NCBI GenBank assembly: GCA_947179485.1
Contig: OX359246.1
Coordinates: forward strand, 45,611,632 to 45,675,631
DNA: 64,000 nucleotides
Reading direction: 5' to 3'
Source of the DNA: Allacma fusca
Taxonomy: Eukaryota > Arthropoda > Collembola > Symphypleona > Sminthuridae
The translations under genes and the position numbers were made by a program. Below are positions 27,982-45,506 of the stretch, piece after piece. The stretch's first letter is position 1. Each line of letters opens with the position of its first letter. The notes beneath the pieces are model-generated. The model was given only the letters and a program-made list of their open reading frames with translations, was not told where the DNA came from and ran no database searches.

Positions 27982-30900
27982 TCATTGGTCCTTGAAAAAC
28001 ATGAACACAACTTTAGCGACAACTATAAGAACAACAATTAAAACGCAGAGAATTAAAATATTTCCGTAATGTATTCCTTCAAAGGGGGCTCCTGTTTGGA
28101 GCAACGCAGGACCATTCTCTTGAACAACCCCAGCGTCTTGAGGGTCACCATTATTCTGACTTTGTGTTCCATCACCTCCAAAACTTCTGAATTCTCCAAG
28201 CACATAGCCTGGACTTTTTCCCCCTGCTATAGCTTCATCTTGTTGAATTTCTTCGGAAACCTCTACATACTGATCATTATCATCTAGAATTTGCCCCCCT
28301 CCAACAGTTACTCCAGCTGTGGTGTGGAAAGCAGATTGATGTTTGACCTTGGCTCCATTTCCTAGACTTCCGTGGGCCAATTCTTTAATTTTAGTTTTGA
28401 CGACAGTACTAACTGGCTCAGTTTCTTCGTCATAATACTCAATAACTTGGTCCACGTTCCCTGGTACATTTGTGACTAATCCGGGTCCGACAATCTGAAC
28501 TGTACTTTTGCCTTCAGAAACTTTTGTGACGGTGCCTTTTGAAGTACCCTTCTTTACAGACGTTTTTTTCACAGTGTGTGACCCATGGCTAATTTCTTGA
28601 ATTTCTTCATCATAATAATCAGTTTCTTCAATATTTTCGTCATTTTTGTGACCAAGTCGTTCAACTTCACCATCTACTATGACCGTGCGATTTACACTTT
28701 GTCGACCTTTGGATTTCTTTCTTGCAGCATTTTCATAAATTATCTCGTCACTGCCTTCATAGATAACGTCTGGAGAATTTGTGGAACTATTATTCTTTCG
28801 TTTGTTCTTAGGAACCCTTTGTCCGCCTACATTTTCTTCAATTTCTTCATCATAATATTCATACTCTTGAGCAAGCCCATCGTTACCTCCAACAACCCCT
28901 TTCACAACATTACCTCCAGCGACTGTCGTGTCATTGACAGCCCACTGACCTTTAATATTTTTCTTTGCGCCAGACTCAGAAATTGTTTCTTCATGTCCTT
29001 CTACAATACTGCCTTGAGGATTTTTAGCACCACCCTTTTTCCTTATATTTTTAACAGCCTTTTGCCCATTTTGACTTTCTTCAACTTCTTCGTCATAATA
29101 TTCAATATTTTCAATGTGCTCTGTGTTGCCATTGACACCTCCACCTTTTGATGCTTTTTCAACAATGGTCACCGAACTATGACCACCTCCATGACCAATG
29201 ATACGGGTTCGTTTTGTTGTTCCATTTCCCGATATGTCATAACTTTCCTCTTCAACTACCTCAGAGTGTTCAGTGTCTTCGTTACCACTTCCCCCATCAA
29301 AGTTAAACACTCCTCCAACTTGTTTATTTACTTGGTTTTTGACAGAGGGGACATTTGGAACTACAATTTTTGTAACGTTAACATGTTTGGTTCTTTTTCG
29401 AACAATCCTTCGACCGTGGTGAGTTTCTCCTTCACTTTCTTCGTCATAATACAAAATATCTGTAGCATTTCCTCCTGCACCTTGGAAGCCTCCTCCGGAC
29501 ACTTCAACTGTCTGATTGACAGCTTGCTGACCTTTACTCTTTTTTCTTGTGGTGCCATTTGTATAAATTACTTCTTCAATTTCTTCCTCTTCTTCGAAAG
29601 CGTCTGGGAAATCAAGATCAAGTTGTTGGGTTATATTTTTAGTAGCGCCATGTCCTTTTTTTCTCCCTTGAGTTTCTTCGTCATAGTAAACGGTTTCTTC
29701 AAGAGTGTTATTTTTGACACCGACGCCAAAACTGTCCACTGTCCCAGTAGCATTTCCCTTAACTTTGACCTTCTTCACTTTTCTTACTCCTTTTGAAATC
29801 CCTTTACTTTCTCCTTCCAAATTTTCCCCGAGGTTAGTTCCCACTTCTTCGTAGTCATATTCTTCAATTTCTTCGTCTACTTGATTTTGGACAATGGTGA
29901 CATTAGTAATTGTACCTGTAGTAACTTTGGTTCTATTTTTTACAACTTTCCCAGTTTCAATTTCTTCATCATAATACTCATCATAGTCTGTGATATTTTC
30001 ACCTCCAAAGGTTCCTCCAGCAATCTCAACCGTTTCATTGACAACTCCCTCACCCTTGACCTTACTTCCTTTTGCTGGCTGATTTACAGTCTCTTCGATT
30101 TCTTCTTCAATAATTTCAGTGTGTTCAACGTTATGCTCTATTTCTTTAACTCCATGAGATTTGGCACCTTGGGAATGAATTTCCCCAGAATCCTCAATTT
30201 GTGTTTCTTGGACAGTTTCGTGTTCTTCAACTGCTGTGGTTTTATTTACGCCTTTAGCAATATTCTCAGGGATTTCCCGGCTTTCACTGATGTCACTTTC
30301 TATTTCTTTTGTGGGTTGACTTTTGCTTGTTGTAACTGCCATCCCTTTAGTGTCCGTACTTTCAAGTTTTGTTCCATTCCTGTCACTTTCTACAGTGGTG
30401 GCTGTCACAGTTTCCGCTGTCGAATTTTCGGAAGTAATTGTTGTACTTTTACAACTTTGCATATTTGAAACGTCCACAATCTCCTGGCAATGTCTTTCGA
30501 AAATTCGTCTCAGGAAGTTAAATATTTTCACAGTTAAAGCCGAGACCCTGCGTGAAAAAATTCTTTCAAACTCCGTTTCCGACTGTAAAGACGTGGCATT
30601 ATCGTCATGATCTTGAATATTTTCTGTGCCTTCGACCCCAAGATTGACATTACTATCAGTTCCGCGGATTTCATCTAAAACTACGTCGGGCACTCGAAGG
30701 AAAAAGTTTATGAATTTGCTCAAAGAATATCTAGAAAGCACGTCTTCAGAGGAACTTACTGACCCGAACAAATCATAACCTTCGTAAAGTATGTCCTCTA
30801 AATTTTTCTCGTCGCCCTGAATTTCTCCAACTTTATTAAGTTCCATCTCAATAATTTCACCCATAAAAAAATAGGACCGCATAACTAAATTGAGAAGGCT

Positions 30901-45506: not shown

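Follow-up and report, generated by a model that had tools for sequence, protein, structure and literature searches.

The window analysed here, 64,000 nt of DNA from the springtail Allacma fusca (contig OX359246.1, assembly GCA_947179485.1; all positions are window positions), carries on its minus strand a gene of 32 exons whose product, P0001, joins the LDLa, laminin IV/EGF and Ig modules of perlecan to a new last exon with a strongly hydrophobic C-terminus, and has no LG domain. Judged by its sequence, P0001 is a perlecan paralogue by descent and not a full perlecan by architecture. The best explanation, with a probability of roughly 0.55, is a lineage-specific perlecan duplicate that is likely to be a type I cell-surface protein with a new stalk and a predicted transmembrane helix.

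Gene model, last exon and downstream sequence

Joined by hand from the sequence, the exons run from an ATG at 45506 to a TGA at 27984-27982 and encode 3631 residues in 10.9 kb of coding sequence (Table 1). Every exon is open, GT and AG borders are present at 31 of 31 introns, and all phases are consistent. The product is identical, letter for letter, to a public Allacma fusca protein, an unnamed product whose UniRef name begins 'Basement membrane-specific heparan sulfate prote'. The Allacma genome note states that annotation with RNA-Seq data was planned (PMC10427803); a search of PMC9630974 for annotation and RNA terms gave no occurrence.

Over the whole protein, Pfam matches comprise five stretches of PF00057, three of PF00052, three of PF00053 and eleven of PF13927. 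Together with the gene model, they bear out the perlecan-like module order given in the initial annotation: as in perlecan, N-terminal LDLa modules are followed by laminin IV and EGF units and, after these, by a long Ig array. The N-terminus can be aligned to those of P0002 (Allacma) and P0003 (Folsomia), and the hydrophobic stretch of exon 1 is the sole non-C-terminal one among the 15 most hydrophobic 19-mers of P0001. A 13-residue motif and the sequence SDDEDL in exon 2 have counterparts in the Allacma and Folsomia perlecans. Seven SG pairs, candidate sites for heparan sulfate chains, have acidic residues around them when a loose rule is applied; two of the seven fall within Ig domains.

Table 1. 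Features of the P0001 gene in the window
Feature	Position	Strand	Basis
Exon 1: start codon and hydrophobic N-terminus, putative signal peptide	45432..45506	-	donor GTAAGT, phase 0
Exon 2: acidic N-terminal domain	42260..42692	-	motif counterparts in other perlecans
Exons 3-9: five LDLa modules and one Ig domain	40214..42174	-	gene model; PF00057 (five stretches), Ig families
Exons 10-26: Ig, then three laminin IV (PF00052) units with laminin EGF	34765..40136	-	Pfam
Exons 27-30: module-IV Ig array, part of one Ig absent at the 28/29 joint	32027..34684	-	gene model, Pfam, alignment
Exon 31: first half of last Ig domain	31721..31851	-	phases 1 to 0, like exon 27
Exon 32, start: second half of last Ig domain	31366..31551	-	Pfam ig, E 1.5e-4
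Tail part 1: about five helical-looking repeats of ~60 residues each	30433..31338	-	self-comparison
Tail part 2: charged repeats with DEE motifs	28378..30000	-	motif list, DNA likeness
Predicted transmembrane segment (residues 3607-3628), then KDQ and stop	27994..28059	-	Hessa values
AATAAA poly(A) signal	27885..27890	-	sequence

The initial annotation had the last Ig domain spliced into a 3.57-kb exon, and the gene model agrees: exon 31 joins exon 32 (31551-27982) in phase 0 with GT and AG borders. The reading frame of exon 32 extends over 1189 codons to the stop, whereas the longest open run in 200 mononucleotide shuffles of the exon is 135 codons. Its first ~60 residues complete the Ig domain begun in exon 31. 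Because the second half of this Ig domain stands at the start of exon 32, with matching frame and phase, the exon belongs to the P0001 gene, and an independent gene is rejected. The AATAAA reported to follow the stop codon is likewise present in the sequence.

The last Ig domain is split at the same place and in the same phase 0 as the domain encoded by exons 27 and 28. It shares 59% identity with the first module-IV Ig of P0002 and 44% with P0001's own first module-IV Ig. This likeness and the matching intron suggest that the exon pair was probably copied to the gene end and joined to a new tail.

Codon usage gives little support to the tail exon. With a score trained on P0001's core itself, the own frame is the best one for the whole of exon 32 (-0.009) but stays well under the value of the core (0.040). 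In the helical part taken by itself, a different frame outscores the own frame (0.021 vs -0.012). Three antisense ORFs at 28582-30468 are presumably a side effect of the codon composition of the tail. BLAST of exon 32 in all six frames, as 46 pieces, against the 119 other listed proteins (E up to 1e-3) matched the Ig part alone, which rejects a frame-shifted or antisense perlecan as the source of the tail.

Pfam finds no LG family in P0001 at E 0.001, and the reported absence of a downstream LG exon holds within the window. The minus strand at 1-27981 has 113 stop-to-stop ORFs of 45 aa or more. Pfam at E up to 0.1 detected neither LG nor EGF nor Ig families in 101 of them; the remaining 12 belong to a retroelement, and a separate scan covered three of these. 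The C-terminus of P0002 (1050 residues, with LG) and that of the Folsomia perlecan were compared with the whole window by tblastn. Matches below E 0.1 were confined to Ig and LDLa exons of the P0001 gene and came from the Ig/LDLa portion of each query; the LG portion found nothing better than E 0.36. Neither method found an LG exon further downstream in the window.

About 1 kb past the gene end lies a retroelement, probably DIRS-like (23148-27001, minus strand), with reverse transcriptase and tyrosine-recombinase ORFs. A histone cluster with H2B, H3, H1, H4, H2A and H2B motifs or domains occupies 12230-20161 on the plus strand. One minus-strand ORF within 61-27916 matches the cuticle protein family PF00379 (E 1.9e-15), and a motif scan did not find its exact place within this interval. 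On the other side of the gene, a plus-strand ORF of 635 residues (59480-61384) has weak, below-cut-off matches to ligand-gated ion channel domains and is perhaps an ionotropic receptor.

These surroundings also bear on an artefact, in which exon 32 would be a separate gene or a mis-assembly and the true transcripts would reach LG exons elsewhere. This is hardly credible, given the in-frame Ig half at the start of the exon and a downstream region of DIRS-like element and opposite-strand histone genes without an LG match. The same protein also stands in the public record on a contig of another size (36,014 bases, smaller than the window), apparently from another assembly version, which need not be independent data.

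A second perlecan in Allacma fusca

Perlecan is usually single-copy in arthropods. A second perlecan of the same species, which the initial annotation had considered, is found among the listed proteins: P0002 has 4200 residues, three LG domains and 15 LDLa modules. The proposal that perlecan swapped its LG domains for a tail is therefore right for the gene, which is LG-less and tailed, but not for perlecan as such, since the swap occurred in a fast-evolving duplicate and the ordinary P0002 remains.

A tree of the laminin IV/EGF region was built from 18 of the 120 listed proteins, 14 rows being non-springtail and the Ig array being left out. P0001 and P0002 are sisters with a support of 100/100, while Folsomia and Orchesella pair together (83/80), apart from both Allacma proteins. 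This topology places the duplication in the Allacma lineage, after its separation from that of Folsomia and Orchesella. The terminal branch of P0001 is 0.35 and that of P0002 is 0.035, so P0001 has changed roughly tenfold more. P0002 is also the closer of the two to Folsomia, Orchesella and each of the 14 non-springtail rows. Over the aligned positions of this region, P0001 and P0002 share 73% identity, and Folsomia is 56.7% identical to P0001 vs 65.5% to P0002; the best BLAST stretch between the two Allacma proteins has 55% identity. An earlier tree of 20 proteins, made from best-BLAST cores that crossed Ig registers, gave the same pairs. Its BLAST identities (Folsomia 51.3% to P0001, 49.3% to P0002) are contrary to the branch lengths, which we think is explained by Ig arrays matched out of register.

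Another LG-less perlecan, the 2273-aa P0004 of Orchesella dallaii, was considered as an orthologue of the same design and is ruled out by its grouping with Folsomia (100/99 in the earlier tree, 83/80 in the later one). It looks like a gene model cut short, as it stops at the end of the long Ig exon.

Compared with P0002, P0001 has 5 instead of 15 LDLa modules and lacks a stretch of ~120 residues ahead of the module-IV Ig array as well as the terminal LDLa-Ig-Ig-LG modules. At the border between exons 28 and 29, P0001 keeps an Ig domain's first part, and a 108-base intron (32666-32773) stands where P0002 has the rest of the domain; the intron is too short to hold it. We infer that these differences are losses in P0001 and not gains in P0002.

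P0001's long branch and its incomplete Ig domain could mean decay and count against a functional surface protein. The main rival explanation is accordingly a decaying or barely constrained duplicate, in which the frame is still open, the domain losses and the growth of the repetitive tail would stem from relaxed selection, and the product has no set membrane function. The nearness of all non-springtail rows to P0002 and the DNA-level likeness of some tail repeats, which suggests recent growth, point in the same direction. Nevertheless, this explanation is unlikely, as 32 of 32 exons are open with all splice borders intact over the full coding length, the laminin IV/EGF region has kept its identity to P0002, and the protein ends in a clean, very hydrophobic segment.

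The tail and its C-terminal segment

After the last Ig domain, 1127 residues follow, in keeping with the ~1,130 unfamiliar residues first counted in the last exon. No Pfam family matches the tail, its helical part has no sequence match in the PDB, and none of the 119 other listed proteins contains a tail homologue; the perlecans among them match the last exon in its Ig part only. A database of 5.8 billion proteins was searched twice, at E up to 0.001 and at E up to 0.1, and neither search found a homologue. Each scored the ~8000 candidates that had the most words in common with the query, proteins of about 650-2080 residues being eligible, and the query at E up to 0.1 left out most of the acidic part.

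The description of the tail as acidic applies in part: it is acidic, yet glycine, threonine and lysine are abundant too, and the repeats that make up its first ~300 residues are not acidic ones. Among the five repeats of this first part, repeats 1-3 match one another at z 10.7-16.6, a level that none of 500 shuffles reached. Matches of repeats 4 and 5 are weaker, and the pairs 1-5 and 4-5 are within chance. The repeats are helical-looking, by eye and in a very low-confidence model: AlphaFold, run on 316 aa with no alignment, gave a mean pLDDT of 36, which is not usable. The charged part contains eight DEE motifs, seven of them as YYDEE. Tail pieces of 53-159 bases are 67-79% alike at the DNA level, and this likeness suggests that the repeats grew recently.

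Residues 2504-3600 hold 20 N-glycosylation sequons against 11.3 expected, a number reached in 9 of 2000 shuffles, which fits a luminal stalk. The protein ends in a 22-residue hydrophobic stretch with an internal lysine, followed by KDQ. A hydrophobic segment with a short tail had been noted at this place, and the segment stands. With Hessa scale values applied to the best 19 residues in the last 60, the sum is -4.4, in line with the transmembrane reading. Of the 120 listed proteins (from 431 matches), P0001 is the only one with a value under 0 within its last 60 residues. On hydrophobicity scales, P0001 has hydrophobic segments at both its N-terminus and its C-terminus, and the lysines on the C-terminal side of the second one fit a cytosolic end.

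The initial annotation had offered a GPI signal as an alternative. The position of the hydrophobic stretch at the very C-terminus would suit GPI attachment, but its length of 22 residues, the internal lysine, the charged KDQ end and the lack of a good small-residue omega site at the usual spacing (judged by eye) would not. The GPI signal looks weaker than a transmembrane helix, and a GPI-anchored P0001 is distinctly unlikely. The long, charged and repeat-rich stalk with its basic clusters would also be compatible with a shed surface protein, or with a secretory product whose segment serves sorting only, so that the main product is soluble; we regard this as quite improbable.

P0001 retains the central, matrix-binding modules of perlecan (LDLa, laminin IV/EGF and Ig), has no LG-EGF end and carries the new last exon. 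The protein most likely enters the secretory pathway, and the C-terminal helix would hold it in the plasma membrane as a type I protein with a cytosolic tail of a few residues only. The charged and probably glycosylated stalk of ~1100 residues would then hold the perlecan arm off the membrane, where it may engage partners in the matrix, perhaps with glycosaminoglycans attached, and would not bind cell receptors through LG. A dedicated transmembrane perlecan, in which the LG end was replaced by a glycosylated stalk and a helix in the duplicate of the Allacma line, is a tentative proposal with somewhat less than an even chance.

Relation to known perlecans and surface proteoglycans

Perlecan/HSPG2, the arthropod Trol proteins (P0002, P0003) and P0001 have in common the acidic N-terminus, LDLa, Ig, three laminin IV units with EGF and the module-IV Ig array. 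P0001 differs in lacking the LG-EGF end and part of the Ig array, in its reduced number of LDLa modules relative to P0002, and in its tail with the predicted membrane segment. Perlecan is typically secreted and free of a membrane anchor, from which the predicted segment of P0001 would depart. Short isoforms of nematode UNC-52 are also perlecans without LG, but they arise from one gene and are not known to have such a tail, whereas P0001 is encoded by a separate gene. Syndecans and glypicans are cell-surface proteoglycans held by a transmembrane helix or by GPI; unlike P0001, they have unrelated cores without perlecan modules, and glycosaminoglycan attachment in P0001 is only putative. Neither a membrane- or GPI-anchored perlecan nor a study of springtail perlecan was found in the literature searched, which leaves out most subscription papers.

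The LG end of perlecan helps to tie the protein to cell receptors. P0001 could be a basement-membrane protein built into the cell surface, and its perlecan arm would then no longer need dystroglycan or integrin. A review (PMC9010944) assigns to the LG domains of domain V a role in facilitating contacts between cell and matrix, and it describes interactions of domain V with integrins as well as complexes of perlecan with dystroglycan. An LG-less duplicate that has a predicted anchor of its own would amount to a natural experiment on LG function. P0001 would also be a case in which a tail without detected relatives was added to an ancient matrix protein, apparently along with a copied Ig exon pair.

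An alternative C-terminus is found in at least 10 of the 120 listed proteins (P0014, P0066, P0067, P0008, P0043, P0060, P0062, P0079, P0095 and P0117), from a cricket, mayfly (twice) and Daphnia, all picked out by pattern, and from six Hymenoptera picked out by eye. Within their last ~100 residues, these proteins carry W[IV][PS]SSLV[FLY] or SSSLVL, where seen directly after the last LG cysteine. Their ends are hydrophobic, and none falls below zero on the Hessa values used above. The alternative C-terminus is possibly a GPI signal, in which case a membrane-held perlecan isoform might be wider spread.
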